A DNA stretch of 64,000 bases from contig PUQB01000733.1 of NCBI GenBank assembly GCA_003024785.1, positions 45,121 through 109,120 of the forward strand, given 5' to 3'. The position numbers and the translations under genes were made by a program. Numbering within the stretch: position 1 is the first letter of the stretch; each line of letters begins with the position of its first letter. This stretch comes from Selaginella tamariscina. Lineage: Eukaryota; Streptophyta; Lycopodiopsida; Selaginellales; Selaginellaceae. Below are positions 2,131 through 64,000 of this stretch, in pieces. The notes under the pieces are model-generated. The model was not told where the DNA came from. It did no database searches and worked only from the letters and a program-made list of their open reading frames with translations.

Positions 2131-2581
2131 AAGATTCTATAACCTCTTTGGGCTGTTCTTTGTTATTCACCAATAACACAGGTCTTAAACCCTTTGTCCA
2201 AGTGTCCCCTATTGGTTTTCATTTTCAACATTCATATTTTAATCCCACCGCCTCTCTCTCTCTCACTCACACACACATGCACACTCTCGAAACTATCATT
2301 TCCATTTAGAAGATATTTTAAATTTAAACTAAGACTATATGTTAAAACGTAAGTTGGTCACAAACTGTTGGTGTAACATGTGTATATAATATACTTTGGT
2401 AAAGCTGATCGTGCAGAGTTGGAAAATATTCTCTCTATATCATGTATGTGTATGCTTCTTCTTGTGTATATGTTAATGTTTGGAATCATACGTACACATA
2501 TATAACGGTCTATAATCTTTATGAATATAAACACAGTATATATATTGAACAAGGTAAGGATAACGGGTAGCAACCCACATA

Positions 2582-2797
2582 TTACATATCAGCAGTATAT
2601 GCACAGTCCCCTTTCAAAAATTTGGCAAACCACTTGGCAGACTCCTTGGGCTGTCTTTCAAGATCACCCGTCTTATTAACATAATATAGACCGTAGTTGC
2701 CCAGGTATCCAGCAAACCATTCCCATCCATCGTATAAAGACCATACAAAGTAGCCCTCCACATTCACTCCATCCCTGTAGGAATGAAATATTCTCTC

Positions 2798-2869
<72 letters not shown>

Positions 2870-10700: not shown

Positions 10701-13291
10701 ATGATGGTTCTCATTACTCCAGATGTGTATATAATCAGCTTATTTGAATGGGTTAAATTATCAAACACACCTGAAGTAATCACATAAAATAGTATGGTTA
10801 AGGTTGTTGGTTTAAACCACAAAAAAAGCGACACGAGAAGGAAAGTGAAATATATAATGCCTGGAAAAAACATGGTCTCTCAATCAAAAAGACCCAACAT
10901 GTTTTATAAATGTAAAATCCATTGATATGGGTGGATATCAAGAAGCGTTAATAAAGTCATGATTAACAAAACTACAAGAGAATGTATGTTTTCTGAAGTT
11001 TAAAGCAACTACAAAATTATAAAATATCGTATATTTAATATTCATAATTATTATAAACTCTTTAATAATAGTACCAAAGTTTACTTAACTATATAAATTT
11101 ATAAAACGATATTGGAAGATTGACTATATTATTATAGGATTTTGTATATTATATATATATTATTACTATAAATTTTTAATTAATAATGTTATATTTAAAT
11201 ATTAATATTTTAATAATAACATCAATATTTATATAATGTACCTCTTATGCTCTTCTTTAATTGTTATATTAGGCCCATACAATCTTAAATATATAATATA
11301 TTAATACCTTCTACTTTTATAATGTTATTAATTTTTGTTCAATGAATACTATAATTTATTAAAGGGTTCGATTACAAAATAGAATATTCTAAAGAAATAT
11401 TCTGTTTTCAAATACATATATTCTAATATTAAAAAGCTAATTAAATAGCTAAAATTGCTAATTATTATAAAATGGGATTATAATCATGCCCATTTTAGTT
11501 ACAACTTGCATACTTTTTAAAGATTGAATTTTGTTAACAACTTGCACTTTATATCGTTGAACCATGTGTGTGTTATTATGAAAAAGCTTCTCCTTTTTTG
11601 AGACCACCATCTCTAACAAATAAGAATGAACACTACCTTATCTATTTATTTTTAAATGAATTTTCATGTGTTATATGTAGGTACTTAGCTAAAAACCAAG
11701 TAAATTTACTTTTAACAATGCAATAATTCTATAAATACTGTAAGTAATGTAAGATTTACTAAAAAAACATAATGGAATACTTCCTTTGTGAGAAAGCACT
11801 TCAAAACTAATGTTCAAATTATTAATAAGGAAATGGATGCGAAATTTTTTGCTTGTCCACTAGAGCACCCTAAAAAAACAATGAGTATTTACTAAGTGAG
11901 TAAGTGAATATAGAAAATATTAAGAAATAAAAGTGTGTTATCGTTATGATACCATGTTAATATTAATATGCCCAACATCTAATTACAACCAGCCACCATA
12001 ATTCTTGTAAATACATGATATATATCATCAGCCATTCAACCTAAGCATTTACACCTAAAGCCTTGTTAATTATGACTTCTTTTGAGTTGCCTTATATCTT
12101 ATTTACTTAGAAAGAGAAACTCTAACCATAATAAACCTCCTTTGGCCCATGTACCTATTCTACCCCTCTAAGTAGTCTAGAATGCCTTATAGTATAGAGT
12201 TACATTAGGGTTTGCCTAAACCCTCAATATCGTATATTATGATGTGATACTTGCTAATACACAATATAGTTTTAATCTTGACAATCATGACAATTTAAAA
12301 AGATGAAATGTTAGTAATGAGGGTATATTTTGGGGAATCTGAGGGTTTTATTTTATGGAGTGTGGAATTCATGCAATTTTTCAATCTCTTTCACCATGTG
12401 CAATTCTCAAATTTTTGAAAATTAAAGGTTTCATTTTGTAAGTGCATGTATAACATATGTTCATGAGCATGTTTACCTATAAAATATGATAAGCTAACAT
12501 AGGGTTTGACATATTGAATTTACATCCAACCAGTTGGCATATCATTTGCTACGTGGATTTGAAATATAGCATTTGGCATTCAATGACAATTCATAGGGTG
12601 TTGGCAAAAAGAAGGCTTCATACAAGAGGCTTGCAAAATATCTATGTTTATTCTCAATTATTCCCAAAATATCCTTGAATATTCCATAAGATGAGGTCTC
12701 AAACTGAATAATAAAATGCATTACATGTATGTCGGTTTGGTTTAAAAATGTTGATCTAAGTTATAAATAACATGAAAAGATGAACCTATAGTCACATAAT
12801 CCTATCAATGCTGCCATCCATCATGAAAAAGACATGTTCAATGAGTTAGATCTACTATATACATGTTAAATTGTTTAGGTGTCAATAATTGGAGGTGCAT
12901 AGTTCCTTTGACAAGCATAGCAAGCCATAAACCTCAATGTCGCTAAGAACATGCTGTTGGAGAAAGTATGTAATGTCTGAGTTTAGTCCAAAAATGATAA
13001 ACAAATTACATATGCAAACAAGGACTCTAGCTCTTCGCCTTTTGAAAGCTTGTGCAAGTGCAGAATGGAAACCTAAAAATGGTTATCATTGTTTGGTTAA
13101 TGAAGGAGACAATAAATGATTCATGCCTTCAACATTACCCCACTTCCATACCCCAATAATATGTTCTTTAAACTTTTTGGTTTGGTTGTAGTTCTTGGGT
13201 GTTCTAATAGAACATCCATTATAACTTGGCACCTTAGTAGCCCCCACTCCTTTAGGTGGCAACGGAGTCTTCTCCATGAGTGTGGCATTTG
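10701..13291. other. AT-rich spacer between the duplicated blocks
   Basis: Low-complexity AT-rich DNA with scattered short frames only. I see no RNA gene, no conserved protein motif and no clear repeat boundary. The second duplication block begins near its right end. Confidence 0.5.
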
Positions 13292-15674
13292 GCCACACAT
13301 TTGGTCCTCCAGTGGTGATGAAGTCTTCTCCTTGAGTGCGGAAGTTGGTCATACTTGTGCTTGTTCAACTCCCTCTAGATTAAATTTTGCTTCTTATAAA
13401 ATTGTAACCTCCTTAGTTGTCAAGTTTTATTCCTTTATGCACAAGCCACAAATTGGACAACCTCTGTTTGAACAATCCCCGTAAAGGGACATTTATAACA
13501 AGTAGAAGGACATGGCAAAACCATATCATCTGGTGCACATGCTCAACGTTTCTTAAGGAACGTCTTGTGCCAAAGAATCATGATGCTAAAACATGCTGCA
13601 ATATCCAATCAAGTGCCCGCAAAGAGTCCCTCCCTCTTCTATATTGCCCAAACACTGCATTTTGCTCAACTTTCTAATCTTCTGTATAGCCAGTTCGTTA
13701 GATGTACTTCTCTTTCGCATATGTCTTGAAATATGAGAGTCTTCCTTCTAGAAATTCGGCACTATTTCCTTCACTTTGGCACTCTGCAAGAAGACGTATG
13801 TAAATTTAGTATATGGCTCCAAAAATGAAACACACTTCATTAATTGTGACCTCCTTGCTCTTACGTGAACCACCTTTGAGTTATTTGTGGTTGGAATATT
13901 CAACATACCTTCCTTTATCATCTTGCATATGTCCATCATGAATATGTGGTACTCATGCTTGATCCACCATGCCAACAATATCTTTAAAGTGGGAATGTTT
14001 GATGCTTGACCATCCCAAAAATATCAAGCATTACAAGCCTCTCCACCTTCTCTACTACATTGCATAGATTCCATGCCCCAACAAGAATATTCAATCAAGG
14101 AGAAGAATATTTTGTGGTTGACACTTCATTAGTCAAAAAAATTTCTTTCACTATTATAAATTAATACATTATATACATTATACAAGAAATATGCACATCT
14201 TCATTGAAACAAAACACTTAGTTACATGTTACTCTTCTTCTTCAAAATTGTAATAATTCTTGATCTGTTGCTCTGTTGCTCATGCAATGGCTGCTAAGGC
14301 AATATCTGCATGAGTTGCTTTTCGGCAGCTACCTGAGTTGCTATTTCTACCTTCTCAACACATCGTCGTTGATATAGACTTGACGTCCTATGCTATTCTA
14401 GCATTAACCTCAAAAGATTTCTTCATTCCCAAAACATTTTTACCTGTAACAAGTGACAATCTTGTCCCTAATCCTATATCCCAAATGAGGTCACCCTATC
14501 TTATACATAGCTCGATCACAACTACATAACCCGGACACTCTTAAGTTATAATAAAAGCATATAGTGTTTAAGTTCAAGTTAGCATGGAATATTTATAGCA
14601 AGTTATCTTACCATAATTCTTGGTAAAGGTCGGAAGTATTTACAAAGATGGTGTAACGTAATAAAAAGTGGATTCATTGTTGCCAAAATTCCAAAGGCTT
14701 GTAACAAAAGCATCACTAGCATAGATTCTTAGAAAAGGTGATAAATAATGAAAATGAAAAGATAGAACTAAATAATATCTTCATTATGTGTTAATATAAC
14801 CAACCTCATCCACAATAGACATAATATGTTGTTGCAACCAATAACTTCAGTCACCTACACAACTCTAGGATCATAGCGATTGTAACGAACACCACCATGA
14901 AACCTTGTGCTGCTAACTACATGCCGACAAAATGGAGGGCCTCATCAAATCTTTTCGAATTGAATTGTCCAATGTAGATGTCACATGATCTTGGGTCCGT
15001 GGGGAGGTTAAAGATCACTAAATTAAAGTTGAACTCACTTACTTTTTCTTACAATGGTGTTTGTGAATCTGCTGTGTGACGCTTGTTAATGATGCCTCAT
15101 GTTGCTCCACTCATCAAATTATGACCTAAACATCTCCTCAATGTTGCATACGGCCAAGTTATATCTCTCACGACTGGATGACAATACTAGGATGTATAAC
15201 ATAAGGTTGTCCTTAATGTCAATGGTCTCGATAGGTGGAATAACCTCCTAGAGCAATGATGGCAATGGTGAAGGAGGCAATCCCAAAGAGCTACCAGCTC
15301 TTGTTAATATACTGGTTCCCTTTGCATGAGTGAAAATCTAGTAAATAGCACTTCTCTGCTGGAGAACCCGAGATTCTATAACCTCTTTGGGCTGTTCTTT
15401 GTTATTCACTAAGAACAAAGGTCTTAAACCCTTTGTCCAAGTGTCCCCTATTGATTTTCATTTTCAACATCCATATTTTAATCCCGCCGCCTATTTATCT
15501 ATCTCTCTCTCTCACACAAACACACTACACACACACACACACACGAAACTATTATTTCCATTTAGAAGATATTTTTTAAACTTAAACTAATTTAAGACTA
15601 TATGTTAAAACGTAAGTTGGTCACAACTGTTGGTGTAACGTGTGCTTTGGTAAAGCTGACCGTGCAGAGTTGGA

Positions 15675-15719
<45 letters not shown>

Positions 15720-15900
15720 TATATAATATAATATATCATGTATGTGTATGCATCTTCTTGTGTATATATGTTAATGTTTGGAATCATACGTACAACATAT
15801 ATAACGGTCTATAATCTTTATGAATATAAACACAGTATATATATTGAACAAGGTAGAATGATATTAAATCAGGTAAGGATAACGGGTAGCAACCCATATA

Positions 15901-17133
15901 TTACATATCCGCAGTATATGCACAGTCCCGTTTCAAAAATTTGGCAAACCACTTGGCAGACTCCTTGGGCTGTCTTTCAAGATCACCCGTCTTAATTGAC
16001 ATAAGACCGTAGTTGCCCAGGTATCCAGCAAACCATTCCATCCATCGTATAAAGACCATACAAAGTAGCCCTCCACATTCACTCCATCCCTGTAGGAATG
16101 AAATATTCTCTCTCTCTCTCACACCACACACACACACGTGCAACAATTACCTCATTGCTGCTAAAAGGCTGGACAAGTAACCCTGGTAGAATCCTGATCG
16201 TCTGGTATCATTGGTCGTTACTCCCTGGCTTAAACCCATTCCTGTTTAAATGTTCAAGTTCATCTAGCATGCAAATATACCTCTGCATGTGCGTGTGCGT
16301 GTGTTCATGCTTGGGTTGTCTCTCAGATACACGCAAGCATAAACATGACGATTTACCTCTCTCTTTCACTCACACACACAAGTATGGTATGTTGTAGTGT
16401 GTGTGTGTTTGTCCTTACCATTCTCTAGTACTATAATTGGGGGATTGTTATACTGCTCTTTGATGTACTTCATAAGCTTCCCGAATCCCCAAGGAACTTC
16501 ATTGAATCCCCAAACTGAACCTTCCTGTATCAACAAAGACGTTTGTGTAAGTGTGTGTGCATGTATGTTATGATATAATTAACAAAACAACTTGCTCACA
16601 GATTTCCCAATACGAACGCCATCCTTTGTATCTGAAAGTTGAAATGATGTATTATTACTAATATACCTGTGTATATACATGTATTTAATACCTGACATGG
16701 CAACTCCTACATCAGGTAGTATAGAAAAAACCTGGGTGTTATGATCCACACCATTGTCCGGAAGGGAATCAGCTACATAAGAAGATGAGTAATGATTGAT
16801 TCCAATAAATCCGTCGAGTTAATCAACATTAAACTCTCCTCCTTCGTGAACTTCGGTAGCCTCGCCTTTACAATGTCACGCATTATGCTTGGATAATCAC
16901 CATACATAGTGGGATTCATAATCCTATAAATAATTATAAAAATACAATAACACGTATATATATATGCATAGCATATGTGTGTTAATATAATGAATATATA
17001 CCATCCAAGTTGAAATCACGAGCCTTGTTTGCTGCTTGTATATCTGCTGTTCCGTTTGAATATGGCTCGAACCATTGTGATAAAATCGCCATGCCGATAA
17101 CCCCGCTTGTCTTGCCTATTTAAACCTTTTGTT

Positions 17134-17200
<67 letters not shown>

Positions 17201-18472
17201 CAAATGTATGTGATATTACACCGCCTCACACACACCTCAGACCCATAAACATACTGGACGTTCTCATTCCAGTTTTTATAGTTGGAGGTATGAATAGAAG
17301 CTCTGTCGACTTTGCATAAGTACGTGCACACACACGCACACCTACCTGGAAGTTTTCTCTATATATTTTTGCAGCTGCAGCGTGTGCTAGTAAAAGGTTG
17401 TGCACAGCAATATAAGGTTCGGTTCGAGTTCCCTTGCGAGCAACCAATTGAGAAAGGTGTCTGTGGCATCTCCCAGGAGCAATTAGACCAAGTCCGTACC
17501 CAAACGTACCCATTATATTGGCTCGTTGATTGTTATCCATGCTTTACCCTGTCTCCGAATGCTGAAAAACATGTCTCTGCAAACTTGGCATATATCGGAC
17601 TGAAAAATACAAATAATTAATTACTAGTTAATATATAGAGTTATTTCAACTTACATCATATCCCGATTGAGCCAAGCACCTAGAGAATCCTCTAGCTCTT
17701 GTGCATGATCCCAATGGTATATTGTCACGTAAGGCTTAACTCCTGTTCAGTGATTATATATAATATGGAGACACACACAAATATAATATATTACCTTCTG
17801 CTACTAATTCATCAATAAGAGCATTGTAGTAAGCAATGCCTTCCGGATTCACTTGGGATCCCCCATCTATATAATTAGCTTTCAGTATAATCTGTATGTC
17901 CATTGTGTGTGTGTATGTCTATAACAAGTACTTGGGAATATTCGAGTCCAAGAGATCGAGAATGGTATGCGTCCATCCCCAAGTTTTTTATGTGTCCAGG
18001 TATCTCCTGTTCAAGGTTTTCCTCTGTTACTTGTAATATATCAAACACACACACACACACACACACACACCTTGTATCTATGTATCCATCTACAGCAACA
18101 TCTCCAGTGGTGCCATCACGAATTCGACCTGTTAAAGTAAATAAGAAAAACCAAGAAGAGAACTGAGAATATACCTTGAATATGGGAAAACGTATCCCAA
18201 ATGCTGGGTGTCCTACCTCCTTGGGATATTGCACCTTCAATCTGTAAACAAAACAGATTTATATGATTAATATGTGCATGTATAATATATATACACACAC
18301 GCACACACACCTGATAAGCCGCCGAACCTGCTCCGAAAACAAACCCTGGTGGGAAGTCGCATTTGCTGCAGGCAGTACCATTACATTTGTGATCATTATT
18401 AGCATATACAAGAACCAAATAAATGGTGCAAATGCATAAGAATTGTATGAGAATATGCACCATTTTGCACAT
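15901..18472 (-). pseudogene. GH1 beta-glucosidase, duplication copy 2, multiple frameshifts
   Basis: This is the same 13-exon GH1 gene as in copy 1, encoding a secreted beta-glucosidase (signal peptide from 18472 or 18463, then [15 protein letters not shown]). Exon 2 is intact here ([20 protein letters not shown]) and exon 11 keeps the C5 run, giving [12 protein letters not shown] with the nucleophile glutamate. Other exons are broken by single-base losses relative to copy 1: exon 3 (near 18090), exon 7 (two, near 17514 and 17537), exon 9 (near 16805) and exon 13 (near 16040, GGG to GG). In exon 7 two further losses compensate each other, so about 14 residues between GRC and TEPY are read in a wrong frame. 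Copy 2 is therefore more damaged than copy 1, although each copy is intact where the other is broken. It is probably a pseudogene, though an unpolished assembly could give the same pattern. Confidence 0.85.
17132..17198. repeat. (CT)n(CA)n microsatellite
   Basis: A compound CT/CA tract in the intron before the exon encoding GVIGMAILSQWFEP. It is longer than its counterpart in copy 1 near 3868-3904. Confidence 0.9.
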
Positions 18473-19684
18473 ATCTTCACAAAGGACCGAAGGAAACAAA
18501 CACTACGGACTGATTCTTGTTTTCTACCCATTTAAAAGCAGGGGAATATGATACGTGTCATTAAAAGTGACAAGAGAAATCACCATCTGCTACTCCAAAA
18601 GAATCTCCGGATATTCGTTCTGTGCCTACATAATTAATAATTAAATGAATTATTTATTAGTTTATTCATAAATATTACTGCAAGGTTAATTCTGTAAACT
18701 TTTGTTTATGCAAATCTACATGATGAAAATAAATTTTAGTATTTAAAATTAAAATTATATTTTAATTTATCTTGAAAATAAAACTATCAATATTCGGTTT
18801 TTATCTCATAATAGAAATCTTTTTAACATTTAAACAACTAAAGTATGCAAGTTTTAATTAAATATTAATAAAAACTTTACTTCTTACATGATATGTATTT
18901 ATATTGATTTTTTTTTATTTTTTTTTGAAATTTAAGGGTCAGCCAAGCTTATTTAAATTTTCTATTCTTTATTATTCTAATATTAATAAAACTTAATTTT
19001 CCTATGATACAAAAATTATAATTAAATTTGGTATTAACTAAACTTTACGTGTTTCAATTTTAAGTATAAGTGTAAAATTAATCTTTTAAAAAGAGCTTTA
19101 ACTTTGATCCTTTTCTTAATCACTTCTTAAATTCTTTTCAAACCGTTGAATATGAATTCAATCTACAAGACCTAGAATTAACGATTGGGATGTGAAATAT
19201 TTTAAAGAAAAGCTAAAACGTATTAAGAAAGATTTAAGATATTTAATTATTATGATATGAAAAAAAAACCTTAATAACAGTTGCAACTAAACTATCATAT
19301 AGTTCAATTATTCATTCATATTGTTGAAGCTTGAATAGACATGGATGAAAGGAATGTGTAGCCATAACGTTTTAATTGTAATAGAGATATATAACGTAAA
19401 TACATTATATTATATTAACTGGTATGCTGTCACAGAAGCTTCGAAAATTGCTAGTAATATCTCTCACTCACACGCACACACATTAGCGTAATATATTAAC
19501 GTGATGTATTCGATTCATATAACGTTTCTTGTAGATATATTAAGTTTAAAACTTTAAAATTCAATAGATATAAAAATACGTTATTTTAAAACTGCATACA
19601 CGAGCGCCCTACTTGCTGCTTTTCATTAAATGAAATAAAAAATGAACAATATTTTATTTAATTAATTTCTAATTATTTATAATT
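18473..19684. other. AT-rich spacer between fibrillin and beta-glucosidase
   Basis: No gene is supported. The stretch at about 18580-18630 parallels the possible 5' noncoding exon upstream of copy 1, but it is shortened. The rest is AT-rich with CA runs near 19460-19490. Confidence 0.5.
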
Positions 19685-38244: not shown

Positions 38245-38847
38245 GTAACATGGCATCGGAGCCACGGCGGCAAGCAGACGGTAGACTCAAGCATTCAAAG
38301 GTAAATGCGGCTCAAGGGGAAGGCAAATCTTCCTCTTGTGCGGGTGCTGGGACAGCAATGGTAGCTGCAGTCAAACCCTTTGCTTTCCAAAACAAAGACT
38401 TTGCACTATGGAAGTGTTTCGTGTGGTTGTTGTACCATGGATTGTCCGTGGCAAGGATGTCGAGCCGGCGATCGAGAGCACAGTGGAGTCGATGAAGCTG
38501 CATATAGATTCAAGATGAGTACGCACGAGGCTGTATTTGTTGTTTTCTTAGTGCAAGTGTCCTGCTCAAGGCGAATATGAGTGAGGGTGCACAAAAGCTG
38601 TGGAGGTGGTTGGAAAACACCTATGGAAAGAAATAGGAGCTCATGGTCCTAAACATGCGGTGTCAGAAACAATGCAGAAACTACAGCTCTTAGGAGTTGG
38701 GGTCAATATTGATGGAATGTTTCTTCACGAGAACTTAAGTTTCAAGGAATCTTCACTTTGCCTAATCAACCAAGAAATTCTTTGTCAGGAATGTGGTGGA
38801 GGACATGAACTTCAATAAGCCATGCTCATTCGTGATGCTACTCTGGG
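38245..38847 (+). mobile_element. Ty1/copia remnant, left part (gag)
   Basis: Plus-strand fragments resemble the copia gag region: FAFQNKDFALWK near 38390 and KLWRWLENTYGK near 38594-38632, in changing frames. The sequence stops at a 12-bp motif (38836-38847) that recurs at 47829-47840, and the same type of element (zinc knuckle, then pol) continues after it. I read this as one copia copy split by the insertion at 38848-47828. No LTR was found. Confidence 0.55.
38836..38847. repeat. Target-site duplication, left
   Basis: TGCTACTCTGGG is repeated exactly at 47829-47840, close outside the inverted termini of the transposon. This is longer than the usual 8-11 bp of Mutator-like elements, but it is the only perfect repeat at the two borders. 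Confidence 0.65.
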
Positions 38848-38860
38848 TTTGACATTTCCT

Positions 38861-38990
38861 CGAGCGCAGTTTGCCGAGCGTACGGATTTCCGTCATACCG
38901 GAATATTCCATTCCGTACAGAATATTCGTTTTCATATAAAGAATATTCTGGTGGCCGGCGGGCGGGCAATCATGGCGGCACGGTAATGTG
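38861..38990. repeat. Left terminal/subterminal region of the transposon
   Basis: Starts with CGAGCGCAG and carries GGAATATTCC, CCGTACAGAATATTCG, AAGAATATTCTGG and a GC-rich block (GGCCGGCGGGCGGGC). The same elements occur inverted at the other end. Confidence 0.65.
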
Positions 38991-39150
38991 TCAAAGTTTC
39001 ACAAATTTGGGGGTTAATCTGACATATATATTTATATATTTATATTTATATTATTTTTTTTTTTTTAATATTTATATTTATAACTATAATTATATTTTAT
39101 ATAAATACCGCATCAAACTAAATAAAAATTACAATAAAAACATAACTCAA
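38991..39150. other. AT-rich 3' flank of the ParB-methyltransferase gene
   Basis: Non-coding AT-rich DNA with a T-run near 39053-39067. It probably holds the polyadenylation region of the minus-strand gene. Confidence 0.5.
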
Positions 39151-42100
39151 TCATGAAGACTCGTTTCCACCAGCCAGTGCCTCGTCGTTAATGAATGCAT
39201 TGTTACGGTGTCGTGAACGTTTCTCCAAAATCTGTCTGTCGTAAACTTCGAACTCTTCAACCATTTTCTTTGCCATCTGATTAGCGTAGTCTGGTAGAAC
39301 AATACTGAAAACATATTAAAGTTTAAAACCAAAGAAATGATAAAACAAATCTCACTCATCATCTGATGACTCGTATGATCTCTCTTCTGCTGACTCATCT
39401 GATGACTCGTCGTTGTGCTCCACGGACTTCTCCGTAACAACATCCTTGTCGTTTCGAGAAGGCGGATCCTGGTCTCCATCGTTGTCGCTAGCCAAAGGCA
39501 AATCCTGTGCTTCTGTTTCCATGGCCCTCTTCCACTCATCAAAAGGAGTAATCATGGAAACAACTTGATCATCCCCACCACCTTCAGCTGCTGTAACACT
39601 TGGAATGACCTTCCTGAAGACATCTCTGGCTGCTAAAACCAGATCCTTGTTGATGTCGATTCCATAACCATGTCTCCCTGTGTGAAAAGCTGCAAGAATA
39701 CTAGCACCGGTTCCCACTGTTAGATCCACAACAGTTCCACCAGGCTTTGTGAGCTTCTCCACTAGCATCGCAAACAACTTGGGAGATTTCGGGCCAATTG
39801 AAATCCTGAAAGTTACAATATTAGAACATGAGAAATAACAAACAACATTATACCATGGGAGCTGGAAATCTTCTGGCTCATCAAAAAGAAGAGTGTAGCG
39901 AGTGTCCAAGATCTCCTTGTTCTTGGCAACCTTAGAGTAGGGGGAACCAAAAATACACATGGCAATGATGCTTTCCTGAAAAAATAAACATTAAAAAATG
40001 ACATTCTCAAAAAGAAGAATTACCTTTCTAGAGAAACGGTATCCCCATGACTTTGTCGTGTGCACATAACTCATCTGCAGAAACTTTAGCTTGCAAGTTT
40101 CTGCAGTGTTCTTCAAAGCTAGAACATCATCCGGTAGCACAAACACTACCACATGGCCAGCTCTGTCTAATATCCCGAAAGCAAGGTTCACCAAGTTCTT
40201 CAGCAAAGCATCCGAGAACTTCGTGTATTGATCCACCATCCCGCCTGCCTCAGCAACGCATCCGGTAGGCGGGTCGATGACAACGAGATCAACAGCTCCC
40301 TGGATGCATTTTGGTGGAGGCTTCGCACCAAACACATGAATAGTCCAACTTGACTTGTGACTCACGATCCAATCCTCAAGCTCCTTCAATCCTGACGGAA
40401 AAGGCCTTCCGGCTTTGAAGTACTGGACTGCAAGGTTCTCTGAATCTGCATGAATGATTTCCCAGCTTCCATTTCCCTTCTCAGGCATCACCATCCTCAA
40501 CATATCATCTTCTTCCAATCCAGCCGAGATGAAGGATGGGGCTGAAGAAGAAGCTTGTCCCTTGCTGACCTTGCTCGCCGATCTAGCATACCTGATATCC
40601 ATCTTCACATGGAGCTTCCTTGCAGCATTGTCGTTCTTCCATAATAGCTCTCGCCGATCATCCTTGTGTATCTTATAGCTGGCCATCTCCCATTCGGGAC
40701 AGTCACCAGGAAGGAAATCCAGCCAGAAAGGACAGTGTTCCACTTCGTAATCACTGATATCACGTAACAACCGGCTCCACATGCTAGAATCCTTGGTAAC
40801 ATCCATCCACTCTTTGAAATCTTCAGGGAGTGCATCGTTCTTCCATTTTAAAAACCTGTAAAAATAGATAAAAATCTGTAAAGAAACAAAAAAAAAACTT
40901 GCCTGAATGCCATTCTTTTTGCAGATTTTTCCAGCTCAAATAGTCGAGGAGGTGGAATTGTCGCACCGAACTCCTTGTTCTCGAGCATGTTCTGGTACAT
41001 ATCCAACTTAATTTCATTGTGCATCTTCATATACCATGTCATGAACTCCTCTACATGCTCGACCAAAAGCTCTTTAGCTGCCTCCGCGACCTGGCACGAT
41101 AAAACGAATAAAAATGAAAAATATAAATATTAAATTACCTGGAACCAGTAAGTAAAGATGTGCAAAAACTTGATGAAGTCCTTGTCAGGCCAGCCGGTGA
41201 CACCTTCCTTCTTGTCTTTCTCCGTCATGTTCACCAGCTTCTCAAGAACGCCACGTTCTTGAATGTGCACAAGCTTTCCAAGGATATCAACCTTGACGTT
41301 GGAAGGAAGCTGGGACTTCGCGAGCATTTGAAGCTTCTCCAGAGTTATTTGCTTCGTTGATGGTTTGATAGTGATATCTGTGATCGCCTTGAACCAATCT
41401 TCACCGACCGCCGGATCAGCAATGGTGAGGAATTTGTTCATCCGAACTGTGAATGTCTTGTAAACGCTGGAGAGGATCTGAGATTCTGTCTGGTTTGGTT
41501 TTCTGTTCGCAAGTTTTGTAGCGATTTGTCGCTTCAGTTGATTCTGCAAAAGAAACCGAAAATCAAAAAACAGTCAAAAGAAGAAGAAAAGATTACCTCC
41601 CAAAAAATCTTCACCAATGTCGTCTTTGGATACTCGTACCAAACGTCTTCTTTTCTGTTCGATCTCCACACTTCCACAGCTTTTCTATCTTCCTCCGGCA
41701 TCCCGCGAAGAACATGATCGGTAGAAAGATCTGCAGACTTCACACAACAATTCCGTAAGAACTGCAAGGTGTGAATGATTGTTGTAGGAACCACACGAGC
41801 AGTTGCTCTGCAAAACAAAACAACATTTATTTAGTATTTAAATAATGAAACAAACAAGTCACTTACTCATTCAACCGATTGCAAGCAGCGATTAGTCTCT
41901 TCTCCTCTTGCACTGTGGATGCTATGAGTGTTGCACGTACACGCAAAGTCCATTTCAAACCTGGCTCTTCAGCAAGCAAAGTGTTCAAAGCAACCCGACG
42001 ATGATTCCCATCCCACACCAGAAACTTTGCATCTTTCAGAAATCGATACCATGCAGAAAATGCTGGCTTATGCAAATCCGCTTCAAACTCTCTATCGACC

Positions 42101-42783
42101 TGTGCTTCTGACTCATTCCAACTTCGGCGTTCGTCTGCACTCAGCTGTGGTCCGAAAGATAAGGTGAACACTGACGTCTCCTGGTAAAATCCTTCAGCTC
42201 TAATCCATCCAACAAGGTCTTTCACGCCGTCCTTAGTGACATTCCTCAAACGTTGGTGTGGGAGCAACCTGTGAACCGGGATACGCGGAGGCTCACCAAG
42301 CTCAACTGGAACGTAGTGGTCTCGTCCTTGTAGCGATGTGTCAATATCTGTGTCATACCGAATAACAAGATCCCGAAGAAGCTTGGATGGAGCCTCAAGT
42401 GTCAGCCGCTCCGGAATTGCATATGATTCGGCAACATCCTCAGGAGCATCCAGTTTCCTCTTCTTATTGAACATTTTACTACCAAGATCAATATCCGGTA
42501 CTTCCTCTGCATTACCGTGTTCTGCAGAGCTTCCTGCAATCTCCCTATTTCTAGGCATCCATTCACTCACCACAGTATGTTCATCAATGACTTGCGAACT
42601 ATCCACAGGTTCATTGTTCGTCGGCATCATCTCTTTGTGTTGCAGTTGTTGCTTGGCGCCTCGGCCTCCTTTCTTGCCACGAGGTTTTGGAGCCATATCT
42701 GCAAGAGCTTCTTGGACGATATGTTCTTGAAGTGTCAAAGTCTTGTATTTATCTCGTAGTCTCTTACTCTGCCTTTGTCTCAT
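39151..42783 (-). CDS. ParB-like domain fused to beta-class DNA methyltransferase
   Basis: Eight exons join in phase (42783-41867, 41807-41597, 41543-41139, 41090-40903, 40855-40024, 39975-39854, 39805-39356, 39304-39151), giving 1092 residues with no break. One intron is GC-AG (donor at 40902). A basic, lysine-rich N-terminus (KPRGKKGGRGAK) precedes a ParB-like domain at about 165-300 with RIPVHRLLPHQRL and the box FLVWDGNHRRVALNTL. A helical middle follows. The C-terminal third has the motif order of N4/N6-type methylases: motif IV as DLVVIDPPTG (about 768), then KSPKLFAMLVEKL with motif I TVVDLTVGTGASILAAFHTG and GYGIDINKDLVLAARDVF (about 900-950), then an acidic serine-rich tail. It probably modifies DNA in the nucleus. 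DPPT in place of DPPY/DPPW is unusual. It is divergent from the transposase, which suggests it serves the transposon. Confidence 0.85.
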
Positions 42784-43114
42784 TCTGCAATTACAACAAC
42801 TGATAAGTGTGTGTGTGTGAGTTGTTTTAATTTATGGACACACATTTACTATATATGTATACCTATCAATATATATAGACACACACGCACACACACACAT
42901 ATTTATACGTGTAATGTTGTTTGTGTGTGTGCTCACTATATAATGTTCCTTGTGTATGTGTGTAATGTTGATTATGTGTGTGTGTGTGCAATGTTGTTTG
43001 TGTTTTGTGATGTGTCTGTGTGAGAGAATATGGGTATATTCATATCTCTTCACATGTATATACAGACGAAAAAGCATCATCTCATATATACAAGTCTTAA
43101 ATTCATACTTATAC

Positions 43115-43157
<43 letters not shown>

Positions 43158-43270
43158 TCTTTTTAAGTATGTATTTAAATATATATATTTATATATACAC
43201 ACACACATGTATACAAGTCTAATGTTGTATAATCATACGTGTGTAAAATGTTATTTATGTGTGTGCGCAA

Positions 43271-43308
<38 letters not shown>

Positions 43309-44245
43309 TTTCCTGCCCGAATTGGGCAGGAATCCTGCCGCCAGATGGTGCGGCCGCCGCACCATCCAGGCGGCAGATTTCCTGCCCGAATTGGCAGGAA
43401 ATGTGTGTGTGTGTGTGTGTGTTTGCCGAAATCGGCAATAACTCATGCGTCGGAGGTGTGTGTGTGTGCACACGCGCGTGCGTTTGTGAATACAAAGAAA
43501 TCCTACTGAATTTGCACATACATTCACAGAAATTACTATACACATATATAAGATTTTACCTGTAGCCATGTCGCCGTGACGCTCACACTAGCCTCTTGTC
43601 GCCGCAAAAAAAAGAACAAAAGTGCCCTCTCTCAACAATGGAGAATGGAGAAGAAGAATGGGTAGTCCTGAACCTTTACCCTAAAATCTAACACTTAACC
43701 CTTTGACCCTTAACTATAAAACTGTGTTTAATTAAACCATACAACAGTATATATAATACTTACGATAAATAACATACTATATAAAAGGATACAAATACAA
43801 ACACATATTTAAGTAAAAATTTGTATGTTAAAAAAACATATTATTATATAATTAAATAAATATTCGTGTAAAAATATGTATTTATAATTGACAATTGGTA
43901 GCGGAGCAAGTATTAATCAACATCTACATTTGATAAAATACTGGATCAAATAACTATATAATTATAATAAATAAATTAACAGAATATAAACAAGTCATAA
44001 ATAAATATGTCAGATGAATGTAGATTAGACACACATTTATTTAAAAGACAATAAAGATTGCTCTATCTCTACGTGAAGTGCTATACTATATTAGCATCTA
44101 AGATCTATACGTTTCCTTGAATTAAATATTCGCCCACGTTGAGTCATGATTGTGAATTTTTGAAATGGTAATATCCGATATTTACCAAAAGATGATTAAG
44201 TAATGCTGTTGTTTTTCTGTCACGTTTGTGGTAACTGCTTGCAAA
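42784..44245. other. Divergent promoter region and 5' leader of the transposon genes
   Basis: This region holds the start regions of both transposon genes. A splice acceptor lies right before the methyltransferase start (TTGCAG then AATGAG) and a plausible donor lies after ATGGCTACAG at about 43561-43570, so a 5' intron of about 780 bp is likely. The interval carries CA/TG and TA microsatellites and a long GC-rich hairpin. No further gene is supported. Confidence 0.55.
43274..43424. repeat. Long GC-rich inverted repeat framed by CA and TG runs
   Basis: A (CA)n run leads into ATTTCCTGCCCGAATTGGGC and GCCGCCAGATGGTGCGGC. This is mirrored by CGCCGCACCATCCAGGCGGC and ATTTCCTGCCCGAATTGGCA, followed by (GT)n. 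The arms are about 48 bp with few mismatches, extended by the complementary microsatellites, and a nested near-palindrome lies in each arm. A short perfect palindrome (GCCGAAATCGGC) follows. It could extrude as a cruciform or form an RNA hairpin in the leader intron. Confidence 0.85.
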
Positions 44246-47200
44246 ATGGCCAGGATTGTTTACGGCAATTTGGATCACGATGTTCCTGTGATAGATGGTG
44301 TTGGAATCATTCTTACTAATCAGATTAGAACGTTCTTTGGCATTTTTGATTGGCAAAGTGTTCGTCTTTTTAAACTTCTTCATGGGCAATCTGCTTTACA
44401 GATCGAAATAAACGAGGACCAAGATGCTGGAGGGAAGGATAATCCAGGATATGTTTTGTTACCGGATGAAGGACCATTGTTTAAGCTTGTCGTTGCTTCT
44501 GACTCTGAATACTCAACGTTGAAGAACCTTTTCACTTCTAATACCTGCAAAAAGGGAAGAATTCTTATCGAGGGTTCCACGATCATTCATACAAATGAAT
44601 TGCCTATTGCGTATGATGGGGATGTCATTTTTGAGCTCCCTCCTTCCGAATACAAATACAAAGGAATGAATCGGAAAGAGGATGGACATACCTGGACAGC
44701 AGGAACGACCAGCAACTGGAATTTTCAAGCGAGGGTGTCCAGGAGCAAATGTGTTGGGAGCCTTTGCTGTATCAACCCGGACTGCCCTGCTTCTAAGGCA
44801 GGATTTCCGAACTGCACTAAATGGAAAGGATGTATTGTTTCCCCACCTTCAATCGACAAACTGGCAAAAGGATTGACATGTTTTTTCTGTAAAGAAAATC
44901 CATTGTGCCTTGAAGTTTGTCATGCTGTGGCGTTTTGCGTTTTCCCAGACGACATAACCAAGACTAGATTGTTTATCCACCAGGGAAAACATTCACATCC
45001 AGTGGGTGATGGTGTTTCTGCATCGAACAAAGAAGAAATGCATATGGCGGTCCAGAATGCAACAGAAAGAACTCCCAGAGCTAGTCCAAGAGTCATCGAA
45101 ATGGCAGCATGTAAAGATGCTATCTTTGGTTTTCTATTAGATAATTCTGAGCCTGGAAGTTGGGATAAGCTCATGGATCATTTGCAACCATTATCAAACA
45201 ATCGAAGGTACAATTAGAGTTTTACTTTGTGCTGAGCATTCTTTGATAATACCTTTGATGCAGAGTTCGTCAATGGGTAGCGTCCGCAAAGAGAACTGCT
45301 GCTGAAATGCCAGAGAATATTGATGGATTATTGGAGCTGAAACGAAGGTTGTCTATCCCATTCATCCACGTGATTCACTATCCTGGGATGAATTTCCGTG
45401 GTTCAGACGACCAGGCATTAGTTTTTAAGATGACGGTTTCAGGGCCAGGTTCTGGAATCGATTATGTAAGGATGTGCCAACCTCCTCTTGGCCCTTTGCA
45501 GAAGAGTTGGGTTCTACTTGATCACACACACCGTGTTGTTGATAAGTGGATCACTCTGGCATTGCATGTTTACGACCCAAAGTAAGATGTTATCTTTTTG
45601 TTGTTTGCTTAACTCTTTGATTATTTTATAGTGTGCGCCGATTATCCACCATTGCTTATGGTGACATGAAGAGACAAACGGCTGGAGCTGTGGAGAAGTT
45701 TTTTCGTGCTATGTTGGATGTCTGTTCCGAGAAGGGAATCTACAATGTGCAGTTCGCTGGGTTTATGTCCGATGAAGCAGGAGCGATCTGGCAAGCAATT
45801 AGGAATGTGTTCTTTAATGGCCAAGAAATTCCTGGACGTGAACGGAGCTGTATCTTTCACTATGAACAAGCCATACAACGTGTGACAAGGAAGTGGGTCC
45901 CTCTTGAACATCAACAACAACATCTTCAACTTTTGAGATCATGGCCAACAGCCACATCAACAACTGATCGTGAAGAAATTGAAAATAATCTTTTCCGCTT
46001 TTGGAATGAAAATGTGAAGGATGTTGGAGTTATGCAGACGTGGTTTTCATGGTGGGAAAGACAGAAGAATCATATTTCAAATGTTGTTCTTGAAAGCATG
46101 CCGGAGAATGCTGCAAGGGTTGTGCCCATGACAAACCAGTCGGAGTCTGTTCACGGAAGATGGAGGAGGGCTAGAGATTCAAAATACATTTCATTGTACC
46201 AAGCTACAATCCACGACCTGACTGAATCAGTGCGACAATGTGCTCTTGTGAAGGCTTTTAGAGATGGAAGGTATAGTGGTTCCGGGCCGACTTCAGAGGA
46301 GCTCTCAGCAAGGTTCGAGAGAAGAATGTCAAATGCTAACTCAACAACACCTACAGCAAAGGTTATCATCGACTTAGTTGAAGATGTTGCTCCATCAAGC
46401 ATGCAGGATACTGCTTTTGTGGCTGCCACGAATGTTGAACATCGCACTGTGCAAAGAAATATGGGGTCAGAGGCTGAACGATCCCACCGACCGGACATCT
46501 TCTATAGTGAACAGGTTATTCCAACACAGTGTAGACGGAAGCGACGATTGGATTTTCAACTTGCAGAAGAACATGAAGAATATGTTCTGGTTGAAGAACA
46601 AGATGTTACACCTGGACAATGGGCGATTAGAAGATGTGGTGAAAGAAGTTCTGTGAAATGTCTGGCAGGCTTTCCCTCTTCAGGAGGTCAGTGGAGTGCT
46701 TGTGACAAAAAGATCAGTCCTAGTGGTAATCGAGTGGCTGCTCCTTGTTTTTTTGGAAGGATCAGATACAATGACAAAGAAACTGGTGAAGAATGCTTTC
46801 GCTCACAAATGATGTATTTTTGTCCAACAAACATGCTTTGCAACAGACATCCAAGACCAACTATTGTTTCTCCGCCAGCTTCTACCTCGGTTTGGAAAGT
46901 TCAAGTGGGCACGAAGCTGATAGCAATGGAGATCAATGATCTGGCAAGATCAGGTTTTATGCTAGCTGGGCTTCCTTCAGCTCATGCAGGAGTGCCAGGT
47001 TTTTCAACACCTCATGTTCCTTCAGTTCCTGTTGGAGTCACTGGATTTTCAACACCCCCTGCACAATTTCGTGGACCTCCTGTTCCTGCAAGTGGTCGTG
47101 CAACAAGAACACCTTTAGGGATGTCTAAGAAACAACAGGTAAGTTTTGAAGCATGTTTGACGTTGGGAGCATATGTCGCAGAAGTTGACGTGGTTGATCC

Positions 47201-47465
47201 TCCAACATGCATTCGCTTCAGAGTATGTGACAACGACCATACATCTGCTTGGGTTGTCATTTGTAGCGCACCATCTTGTTCATGCTCGGAGTTCTGCAAT
47301 GGTCGTCAGTGGGTGCCTTGCAAACATATGTATTTTGTTTACAAGCGTGTACTGGGAGCTGATCCTCGAGTTGTCAAGCATTTGCAACGTCGTACACTTG
47401 CACCCCGTGAACTAAGTTCTTTATTGATGCTACCAAGGAACCTCCATCCTCCACCATCTATTTAG
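44246..47465 (+). CDS. MULE-like transposase with GCM/WRKY-like zinc domain and SWIM finger
   Basis: Three exons (44246-45207, 45264-45581, 45632-47465) join in phase to 1037 residues. The first ATG used encodes MARIVYGNLD. Residues about 169-255 form a cysteine-rich domain (SKCVGSLCCINPDCPA, NCTKWKGC, CFFCKENPLC, ending HQGKHSHPV) like the WRKY/GCM zinc fold that binds DNA. A DDE-type core follows: VLLDHTHRV (about 405), GFMSDEAGAIWQAI (about 474) with a downstream CIFHYEQAIQR, and NQSESVHGRWRRA (about 598). A proline-rich linker with repeated GVPGFSTP/GVTGFSTP precedes a C-terminal SWIM finger (CSCSEFCNGRQWVPCKHMYF). It is expected to cut and paste the 9-kb element. The gene is intact. Confidence 0.85.
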
Positions 47466-47629
47466 TGTGTTTGGTTTGTTTTCAAACAGCTTCGGTTTTA
47501 TATTTGTTATTTCAAACTTATAATTTTCAATATAAATTTTAATGGTAATTTTATGTTTAGCATATTTTTAAGTAATTTAACATATATTTTTTTAAATACA
47601 ACAAAAATATACTACCATATTTTGTATGC

Positions 47630-47812
47630 GGCCGCCGCACTAGAATATTCTAGAATATTCTTGAAAATTTTGGAAGGTCAATTGTGTGTACACTTGGCAG
47701 TACGAAAAATTTCCGTACAGAATATTCGAGGATATCTAGACGGAAATCGTACGGAACAACGGAATATTCAAGAATATTCGAAATCTAGGTCAAGCTCGTT
47801 GACCTGCGCTCG
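47630..47812. repeat. Right terminal/subterminal region of the transposon
   Basis: Read inward from 47812 it starts CGAGCGCAG and carries repeated GAATATTC, CCGTACGATTTCCGTC and a GC-rich GCGGCGGCCGC block, the mirror of the left end. The terminal match is short and the inner parts are diverged in order. Confidence 0.65.
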
Positions 47813-47828
47813 AATTTCGCCGTGCCCC

Positions 47829-47840
47829 TGCTACTCTGGG
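47829..47840. repeat. Target-site duplication, right
   Basis: Exact repeat of TGCTACTCTGGG at 38836-38847. Confidence 0.65.
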
Positions 47841-58354: not shown

Positions 58355-59907
58355 GGCGGGATTAATCTCGCCACCCCTTCAATGCCTCCTGAAAGAGTGG
58401 GCGGGATTAATCTCGCCACCTTTCTGGAGGCCTTGAACGGGAGTGCGGAATTAATCTTGCCACCCTTCTCGGTTCAGAGAGAACTGGGCAGGATTTATTT
58501 CTCACACCCCTTCAGTGACTCCAGAAAGGGGGCGGGATTAATCTCGCCCACCATGTAAGTGATGGTTAAATGAATTTCCCCACCCTTCCCAATTCTCTCC
58601 ATTGGTATGTTGAAAACCTTCTACGTCTCAGACAGAAACGTTTGGGATTGGTCCGACTCACCAATGGAGAAAAAAAGGAAGGGTGGCGGGATTCATTCCT
58701 CCAACAGGCATTGAAGACTCGGCGGGATTAATCCCGCCGCCCAGGGCCTTCACTCGGTCCCTATGCGGCGGGATTAATCCCGCCGGACGCCAATTCCCTG
58801 CGCGGAATCGGGCGGGATTAATCCCGCCGCCTAGGCACTTCAGGCAGGCCAATGGCGGCGGGATAAATCCCGCCCGATTCCGCAGGGCATGCGTACGCGG
58901 ATTAATCCCGCCCCAGGCCCTTCACTCGGCCTTAGTCGGCGGGATTAATCCCGCCGAACGCCAATGCCCTGTGCGAAATCTTGCGGGATTAATCCCGCCG
59001 CCTAGGCCCTTCAGGAGGCCAATGGCGGCGGGATAAATCCCGCCCGATTCCGCGCAGGGCATGCGTACGCGGCGGGATTAATCCCGCCCACCATGTAAGG
59101 GATGGTGAAATTAATCCCACCACCCTTCTCAGTTCCCTCCATTGGTATTTTGTAAACCTTCTCCGTCTCAGACAGAGTTAGTCGGGATTGATTCAACATA
59201 CCAATGGAGGAAAAAAAGAAGGGTGGCGGGATTAATCCCGCCACCGGGTAATGAAGGTTCGGAGAGACTAATCCCGCCCCTCTCGTAAATCATGCGCTCA
59301 CACATATATATTGGCTGCGGCATTTTGAACAGGGATGGGTGGGGGCGGGATTAATCCCGCCGCTTATATCCTGCGGAAGTGCCTGAGCGGCGGGATTAAT
59401 CCCGCCGCCCTCCGCGAAGGGCATGAGCGTGGGGCCGGATTAATCCCGCCGTTCATGTCCTGCGTGAATTCCCTGGGCGGCGGGATTAATCCCGCCGCCT
59501 TACGCGCAGGACATGTCATGCAGGCTCTTCGGTTAGCCTTCCGTGCAGGATCTTTCATGCAGGCTCTTCGGTTAGCCTCATGAGCGGCGGGATTAATCCC
59601 GCCGCCCATCCCCTGTAAATGCCCTGCGCGGAATCCGGCGGGATTAATCCCGCCCATTAGGGCCTTCACACAGGCCATTGCCGAGATAAATCCCGCCGCA
59701 TTCCGCGCAGGGCATGGGTGAGCGGCGGGATTAATCCCGCCGCCGAGGCCCCTCACGCAGGCCATGGGCGGCGGGATTAATCCCGCCGCTCTTCGGTTTG
59801 TCGTAGAGCGGCGGGATTAATCCCGCCGCCCATAGCCTGCGTGAAGGGCCTCGGCGGCGGGATTAATCCCCCGCCGAGGCATACCTATAGCCGGGATTAA
59901 TCCCGCC
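58355..59907. repeat. Array of 18-bp palindrome, ~44-bp period (cluster 1)
   Basis: The perfect palindrome GGCGGGATTAATCCCGCC and close variants recur about 30 times. Unit starts include 58355, 58400, 58444, 58487, 58531, 58721, 58767, 58811, 58857, 58938, 58981, 59027, 59071, 59225, 59344, 59389, 59433, 59479, 59586, 59637, 59724, 59770, 59810 and 59856. Most steps are 40-46 bp. Spacers are themselves similar and alternate between an AGGCCCTTCA-type and a CCGCGCAGGGCATG-type sequence, often in inverted relation. A longer unit of about 540 bp (58531 to 59071) includes a palindrome-free segment with a CTCCATTGGT/ACCAATGGAG stem. A direct repeat ATGCAGGCTCTTCGGTTAGC occurs at about 59518 and 59559. 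The leftmost units are more degenerate. No coding function is supported. Confidence 0.95.
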
Positions 59908-61372: not shown

Positions 61373-61950
61373 GGTTTAGGGTTTAGGGTTTAGGGTTTTG
61401 GATTTAGGATGGATCATGCATGGTGTGTATGTATGAGAGAAGAGAGAGTGTTGAAAAATTATTTTTGTACACATTGCATATATTAGTACACATATACTTA
61501 CACATATTATACACAGATATACATACATAGTATATGAGAGAAGAGAGACAGTACATATTATGGATCATGCATGGTGTGTATTATACACACAGACATACAT
61601 ACATATTAGTACATAATATTAGAGAGACCGAGTACATATTATAGATCATGCATGGTGTGTATGTTTGAGAGAAGAGAGACAGTACATATTAACATGGATC
61701 ATGCATGGTGTGTATGTATGAGAGAAGACAGAAAGTACACATATATACATACAGAGTACACATATATACATGCACACGTGTATACACACAGACATACATA
61801 CATATTACATGAGTAAATTCATTGTGTTACATATTAGGGTTTAGGGTTTAGGGTTTAGGATGGATCATGCATGGTGTGAAGAGAGTGTTGAAAAATTATT
61901 TTTGTACACACATGTATACACAGGGTTTAGGGTTTAGGGTTTAGGGTTTG
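61373..61950. repeat. Interstitial telomere-type repeats with ATGGATCATGCATGGTGTGT repeats
   Basis: Short TTTAGGG runs of about four units occur at 61373-61399, 61835-61859 and 61922-61949. Between them the phrase GATCATGCATGGTGTG recurs near 61412, 61564, 61644, 61693 and 61863, giving an irregular tandem array. TTTAGGG is the common plant telomere repeat, and the orientation is constant. Confidence 0.9.
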
Positions 61951-63540: not shown

Positions 63541-64000
63541 GGCGGATTAATCCGGCCATTTCTTTTTCGCCTCTTCGAAGAGGTGGCGGGATTAATCCCG
63601 CCACCATCTCTCGGGCAATGCTTCTCCGCCACTGAAAAAGAGTGGCGGATTAATCCCGCCGATAACCTTCTCAACTGATGAAGAGTTACCAGAATTTATT
63701 AGAAAGAGTTGTCGGCGGGATTAATCCCGCCAACCATTTTAGGAGGCAGGGAAGGGGTGGCGGGATTAATCTCGCCACATCCCTGTTTTAAGGATTTGGG
63801 GACAGGATTTATCCCGAGATCTCTTTGAAATCATAGTTTTGGAGAGAGTTATGTGCGGGTTTAATCCCGCCACCCATTCCCCGTCGTAAGAATTGTGGCG
63901 GGATTAATCCCGCCTTGGACTCCCTCCGACAAGGAAGAGCGCGGGATTATCTAATCCCGCCACTCCCCCGTGGAGGAAGAGGGCGGATTAATCCCGCCCG
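63541..64000. repeat. Array of the same palindrome (cluster 2, runs past the window end)
   Basis: About ten units of GGCGGGATTAATCCCGCC or variants start near 63541, 63585, 63644, 63714, 63759, 63801, 63853, 63897, 63940 and 63982, mostly 42-45 bp apart. Spacers differ from cluster 1 (GGAAGAG- and CTTCTC-rich), so the core and the period are conserved while the spacers are not. Confidence 0.93.

Follow-up and report, generated by a model that had tools for sequence, protein, structure and literature searches.

Transposons that carry a gene for a ParB-like protein fused to a DNA methylase are an already published idea for algae. In PMC12477816, the 21.5-kb Sola1 element Sola1-1_Ec32 of the brown alga Ectocarpus is described as encoding a 1104-amino acid protein with ParB-like and N4/N6-methylase parts opposite its transposase, and ParB-methylase transposons of green and red algae are cited. 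PMC12704722 and PMC5890265 report, respectively, a ParB-methylase domain fusion in phage and cytosine-methylase retrotransposons in Symbiodinium and charophytes. Here we describe a 9-kb DNA transposon of Selaginella tamariscina, located in a 64,000-nucleotide stretch of contig PUQB01000733.1 that was analyzed as a whole (hereafter the window). The element carries two divergent genes, one for a transposase predicted to belong to the Mutator/IS256 clan and the other for a protein that combines a ParB-like part with a methylase domain. This methylase looks catalytically disabled yet is retained as a gene, beside palindromes that vary from one family to another.

The likeness to Sola1-1_Ec32 is one of architecture alone: in both elements the strand opposite the transposase encodes a protein with ParB-like and methylase parts, ~1,100 amino acids in length (1104 there, 1092 here). 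The present locus differs in being a Mutator/IS256-clan element of a land plant, with many-copy relatives and with palindromes in the spacer between its genes. Its motif IV is changed. With the phage fusions (phrog_67) it has the domain fusion in common, whereas the gene here is intron-rich and eukaryotic and has DPPT or DLPN at motif IV. The Symbiodinium and charophyte elements also carry a DNA-methylase gene, but they are retrotransposons and the enzyme is of the C5 class. Searches of an open-access library turned up neither a Mutator-clan element nor a vascular plant for which such a gene is described, and no account of the motif IV loss and spacer arrays presented below, which is weak evidence given that subscription papers fall outside this scope.

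To define the element we compared the window copy with 16 others taken with their flanks from the same genome (300.7 Mb, 1,391 contigs), wherein searches scored the best candidates only, such that the copy numbers from them are lower bounds. The left boundary falls within one base of the nominal GGG start in all 17 aligned copies, and the right boundary falls within one base of the CCCC end in 16, the exception (L020) missing its right end. The initial annotation had recognized a perfect 12-bp direct repeat, TGCTACTCTGGG, around the element. The exact repeat exists (positions 38836-38847 and 47829-47840, with no third site in the window, where 0.01 is expected), but the target-site duplication is only 9 bp long. 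Because the aligned copies start with GGG, the last three bases of the left repeat belong to the element, and their match on the right side is a product of chance. At the nominal ends, duplications agree at nine of nine positions in seven copies and at eight of nine in one; seven further copies (six at 9/9, one at 8/9) are added when an end is allowed to move by as much as 3 nt. Overall, 15 of the 17 copies have a duplication of 8/9 or 9/9, and none was found for L020 or for L021. Mutator-like elements generate target-site duplications of 8 to 11 bp, typically 9 bp, and the element conforms to this typical length.

The terminal inverted repeats are short and imperfect. By hand count, 13 of the 25 outermost positions match in register, including GGG and TCGAGCGCAG, and when the two 130-bp ends are aligned locally the score is 32, compared with a best score of 30 among 2000 shuffles. 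The mirrored end motifs of the initial annotation were upheld in part. The only sites of TCGAGCGCAG in the window are its inverted copies in the left and right ends, and GAATATTC is enriched (22 sites in the window versus 1.9 expected, eight of them within the two ends), but CCGTAC is present in the window at about the expected number (10 versus 9.1, four within the ends).

A genome search for additional elements with these ends, as had been proposed from the first inspection of the sequence, revealed at least 17 copies (17 of 248 candidates scored), three of which are in two pieces. The outcome named in advance as a refutation, the lack of any second copy bounded by these termini, was therefore not obtained. 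Two of the copies (L014 and L016, on contigs C484 and C521) have the same flanks and appear to be a single insertion, so that the 17 copies correspond to 16 sites; the two contigs look like haplotypes or duplicates in the assembly. The 16 other copies differ from the window copy by 0 to 21 substitutions per ~8.1 kb, counts that exclude the microsatellite and mismatches adjoining gaps. More divergent, decayed members of ~95-96% identity (L026 and L027) are also present. In agreement with the earlier description of two intact divergent genes, both reading frames of the window copy are open once 8 and 3 exons are spliced, with introns of the GT-AG type and one GC-AG. Eleven of the 17 copies, one of which has a 21-nt in-frame deletion, have an open methylase frame, and in the other six this frame is broken. 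The transposase frame is likewise open in 11, and both frames are open in five. Most breaks are small indels, some of which may be assembly errors, and one copy lacks 155 nt. The near-identical copies, common termini and 9-bp duplications, together with the match of the transposase to an IS256 profile, bear out the earlier proposal of a recently mobile Mutator-like element and, as judged by sequence comparison, mark its family as very young.

The IS256 transposase profile of NCBIfam matches residues 448-611 of the predicted transposase (E 2e-6, 27 bits). Pfam returned neither a fitting model nor a MULE model at E ≤ 1, its only match being LST1 (0.16), and was similarly uninformative with transposase pieces from L029, a related element described below; a sequence search of the PDB with the transposase gave nothing useful. 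By eye, and relative to what we take to be the Mutator motifs, D407, D474 and E598 are candidate catalytic residues, C500-x2-H503 is a candidate CxxH motif, and SWIM-like cysteines begin at residue 976. The traits that the element presumably has in common with Mutator-like elements (MULEs) and IS256 are the 9-bp duplications, a G-rich start, an IS256-profile transposase, a candidate DDE triad, a CxxH between the second D and the E, and a SWIM-like C terminus. Unlike MULEs, it has short and imperfect inverted ends, no Pfam MULE match at E ≤ 1, and a methylase cargo. By its match to the IS256 profile, the transposase fits the Mutator/IS256 clan.

The divergent gene had been annotated as a ParB-methyltransferase, and the presence of a ParB-like/methylase fusion is borne out by matches to PF01555 (E 3.8e-8, 34 bits versus a cut-off of 26.7) and to phrog_67 (E 7.6e-11, residues 640-1023). 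A profile of three families, comprising that of the window and the two described below, matches 72 chains of solved structures at E ≤ 1 through its motif I half, including MboIIA (1.8e-6), CcrM (7.6e-5), DpnA and RsrI. Moreover, motif IV (residue 768) precedes motif I (residue 917), which is the order that the beta class requires. These observations assign the C-terminal half to the beta class of DNA-methylase domains, with a motif I cofactor site. The annotation is not supported where it has the transposon encode its own DNA methylase, given that each of the three families read has another residue in place of the catalytic motif IV aromatic.

The name for the N-terminal part is less secure. 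We call it ParB-like because of its DGNHR box, matches to DndB models that lie under their cut-offs (PF14072, E 0.0055; TIGR03233, E 0.079), and the known ParB-methylase architecture. The GNHR box is one that we take to belong to the ParB superfamily. A single-sequence fold of the ParB exon gave a pLDDT of 39. Searches of limited reach among phages, plasmids, viral contigs, prokaryote contigs and a protein database found no relatives of the fusion protein, and an Rfam search gave no match.

In amino-methylases, the aromatic residue of motif IV stacks on and holds the flipped base, and active beta-class enzymes carry the sequence (D/N/S)PP(Y/F/W) at this site. This sequence is absent from the readable copies of the three families. 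DPPT is found in 15 of the 17 copies of the window family, wherein the frames of L018 and L020 are broken upstream. DLPN is found in L029, L034, L030, L033 and L035, with L031 and L032 unreadable in frame, and decayed relatives within the window have NLPI and NLPT. Motif I is kept as GSGTGS, or as VGTGAS in the window family. Families whose methylases are 20-36% identical retain motif I along with the aspartate and second proline of motif IV, but not the aromatic. We place DPPT and DLPN under DPPY on the basis of motif order, spacing and flanking residues. Loss of the aromatic makes ordinary adenine or N4-cytosine methylation by the fusion protein doubtful. METTL14, which has EPPL, is a parallel among pseudo-enzymes.

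The same residues bear on the possibility of active self-methylation, in which the protein would still methylate adenine or N4-cytosine despite its unusual motif IV and would thereby mark the element, helping its excision after replication or its resistance to host silencing. This possibility accords with the preservation of motif I and of the motif IV aspartate and second proline across three families, and with a methylase frame that is open in 11 of the 17 copies; the presence of T or N where the base-holding aromatic should stand is evidence to the contrary. Self-modification has been suggested by the Ectocarpus authors for a similar protein (PMC12477816).

Differences among the copies also speak to this point. 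C>T or G>A changes account for 46 of the 63 distinct substituted sites (16 copies, L016 excluded) and for 52 of 71 events when all 17 copies are counted, the latter in CG (21), CHG (15) and CHH (16) contexts. Of the 8,112 bp compared, the 366 bp to the right of the transposase contain 17 of the 63 sites (binomial p 1.8e-9), and the right end of the element (47466-47828) is a substitution hot spot between copies, where the changes are mostly C>T/G>A. This excess looks like a trace of host cytosine methylation that is concentrated at one end. Such methylation predicts the spectrum that dominates among copies, which weighs against active self-methylation, and we consider that explanation rather unlikely. 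Neither is escape visible in these copies, contrary to the earlier suggestion that an encoded methylase could allow the transposon to evade silencing.

The pairing of the two genes is not confined to the window family. A genome search with PF01555 produced 739 candidates. We scored 150 of these, every one of which exceeds the cut-off, and most of the 150 have a common open-frame length of 106 amino acids and near-equal scores. We read L029, which is one of these, 5.5 kb of L030, and five short methylase stretches (L031-L035, five of the top six listed). L034 groups with L029, and L031, L032, L033 and L035 group with L030. The L029 locus, which represents a commoner relative, has the same divergent pair; over the main tblastn stretches, identity to the window element is 21-32% in its methylase pieces and 37-49% in its transposase pieces. 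At L030, a methylase gene is accompanied by the first ~130 residues of a transposase in opposite orientation (33% identical). Taken together, loci of the two other families show identities of 20-36% in the methylase and 33-49% in the transposase. L029 probably forms an element of 7,333 bp, flanked by a duplication of 9 bp (CAAAGTATG, 9/9), with ends that match (17 of 24 positions, by hand count) and subterminal DNA rich in GAATATTC. This duplication was picked from a scan of ~1.2 million position pairs, in which chance should yield a few 9/9 matches; it ranked third by score, and the match of the adjoining ends decided the choice. A search of the genome with the fusion protein itself (42 of 2,332 candidates scored) found at least 98 matching stretches that are 54-100% identical. 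The window also contains decayed methylase and transposase pieces of L029-group kin, both kinds on one strand (168-2025 and 12997-15247, minus strand), that sit at two duplicated segments (1181-5654 and 14445-18867, 85% identical) with frames that are presumably glucosidase-like.

The spacer between the divergent genes is rich in inverted repeats, defined here by arms of at least 7 nt, a loop of at most 9 nt, and at least four G or C per arm. Their density in the window element is 3.4 per kb in the spacer versus 0.55 and 0 in the genes; corresponding values are 9.1 versus 0.9 and 0 for L029, and 1.8 versus 0.3 for L030. Most of those in L029 are copies of the 22-bp palindrome CCCAGTCGGCATGCCGACTGGG, spaced ~39 bp apart immediately upstream of the methylase gene. 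This palindrome has 1,092 exact copies in the genome, and its reversed control has none. On six of the nine contigs listed (C10, C58, C69, C72, C90 and C112), an array lies 3.15-3.16 kb from a PF01555 match; among the PF01555 matches listed, there are none on array contigs C1 and C13 and one on C132, at a distance of 28 kb. The repeats in the L030 spacer, GTGCCGAC-N7-GTCGGCAC and GTGCCGTC-N7-GACGGCAC, differ by a paired change. We consider the spacer repeats a candidate ParB-type binding array. Numerous palindromes ~39 bp apart in the L029 family, and a GNHR box that we take for a ParB signature, would also suit a ParB-like clamp or tether. Such a protein would be loaded at the palindromes, much like ParB at parS, and would bridge the element or hold on to it while it replicates or transposes, with a methylase domain that is structural only. 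With a ParB assignment at the level of motifs only and few, imperfect repeats in the window family, this arrangement is in our judgment very improbable.

A second palindrome, the 18-bp GGCGGGATTAATCCCGCC, recurs ~45 bp apart in arrays at window positions 58355-59907 and 63585-63998. The genome contains 27,128 exact copies of it and none of the control, and among the matches listed, paired arrays 3.4-3.8 kb apart occur several times on contig C1; these arrays are perhaps another abundant mobile element. Gene-like frames on the minus strand (57816-53484) adjoin the first array, and five pieces of them searched against Pfam all stayed under the cut-offs (best E 0.082). This gene was considered as a further methylase and rejected, as matches to the family profiles were unconvincing (best E 0.049 for the ParB part and 0.67 for the methylase part).

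The explanation that we prefer, although tentatively and with slightly less than even confidence, is that the locus is an autonomous, recently active Mutator/IS256-clan transposon whose accessory protein regulates its own element at the spacer repeats, wherein the methylase domain is mainly a pseudo-enzyme. Common termini, 9-bp duplications, near-identical copies and two divergent genes are observed, as is the same arrangement in two other families; the function of the fusion protein we infer from sequence. The transposase would bind the GAATATTC-rich ends and mobilize the element. The ParB-like part may recognize the inverted repeats between the genes, near both promoters, and the accessory protein at these sites would set the expression or chromatin state of its own element. 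The methylase domain most likely still binds S-adenosylmethionine but, with a motif IV that lacks the aromatic residue, would be mainly a pseudo-enzyme that senses DNA or the cofactor and not an enzyme that methylates bases. VANDAL elements are Mutator-clan plant elements with an anti-silencing protein, VANC, that recognizes the element's own repeats. VANC is thus also an accessory protein of a Mutator-clan element, but it is not known to be a methylase or to have a ParB-like part.

Several observations weigh against this regulatory explanation. The 27-bit IS256 match is far under the NCBI naming cut-off of 150. The fusion protein fails to match the Pfam ParB family at E ≤ 1, and its ParB part, when run as a profile against the PDB, gave no relevant match. 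The stretch that places DPPT or DLPN under the DPPY of MboIIA and CcrM scores -0.5 and -2.6 bits on its own. The window family has few repeats, all of them imperfect, and in L030 just two satisfy our definition. Furthermore, GGCGGGATTAATCCCGCC arrays (11 per kb at 58355-59907) adjoin a gene in which similarity to neither methylases nor ParB was detected, which indicates that palindrome arrays are not restricted to the present pair of genes. Finally, the methylase frame is broken in six of the 17 copies. These broken frames, and the proximity of a still commoner palindrome array to a gene for which no relation to the fusion gene was found, are what one would expect if the fusion gene were a passenger that hitchhikes without benefit and the spacer palindromes were ordinary minisatellites. 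Three families with fusion proteins as distant as 24-29% identity nevertheless keep the gene in the same divergent position, and we regard the passenger explanation as distinctly unlikely. A more speculative extension of the regulatory explanation, which we hold to be quite unlikely, is a selfish partition-like system. In this scheme, a ParB-type clamp fused to a catalytically dead, cofactor-reading methylase would load on family-specific parS-like arrays that lie between the divergent genes, with protein and palindrome changing together in each family, such that each element recognizes, counts or shields its own copies only.

The initial annotation had placed the element within a copia retrotransposon. 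The left flank does resemble copia gag (PF14223, E 4e-4, which is under the curated cut-off), but for the zinc knuckle and pol described on the right, three pieces tried gave no meaningful Pfam match. Elsewhere in the window, the segment 25461-30359 has the appearance of an LTR retrotransposon, with 200-bp repeats that are 89% identical around integrase- and gag-like frames, named by eye. At 61375-61395 and 61926-61946 there are short internal tracts of the telomere-type repeat TTTAGGG.

Table 1. Coordinates of features of the transposon in the window.
Feature	Position	Strand	Details
Complete element	38845..47828	none	8,984 bp; 5' GGG, 3' CCCC; ends common to aligned copies, except for the right end missing in L020
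Left 9-bp target-site duplication TGCTACTCT	38836..38844	none	
Right 9-bp target-site duplication TGCTACTCT	47829..47837	none	
Left end	38845..38950	none	GGG; TCGAGCGCAG at 38860-38869; three GAATATTC
Right end	47640..47828	none	inverted TCGAGCGCAG at 47804-47813; five GAATATTC; 20-bp palindrome at 47642-47661
ParB-like/methylase fusion gene (predicted)	39151..42783	-	8 exons, introns of 47-59 nt, 1,092 amino acids; splice model
Putative ParB/DndB-type box DGNHRR	41995..42012	-	residues 258-263
Predicted motif I (cofactor binding) VVDLTVGTGAS	39700..39732	-	from residue 917
Predicted motif IV VIDPPTG	40261..40281	-	D768-T771; lacks canonical DPPY
CA/TA microsatellite tract	42807..43320	none	length differs among copies
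Four inverted repeats in spacer between genes	43325..43438	none	
Mutator/IS256-clan transposase gene (predicted)	44246..47465	+	3 exons, 1,037 amino acids; splice model

Transposon-encoded ParB-methylases were previously known from a few algal elements, with no function given. A single land-plant genome that holds several such families, including a young one in which some copies are open, provides a natural series for comparison. With a cofactor motif that is kept, a catalytic motif that appears to be lost, and candidate binding sites of defined sequence, the questions of whether the protein is a methylase or a pseudo-enzyme, and whether it recognizes its own element, become testable in vitro.

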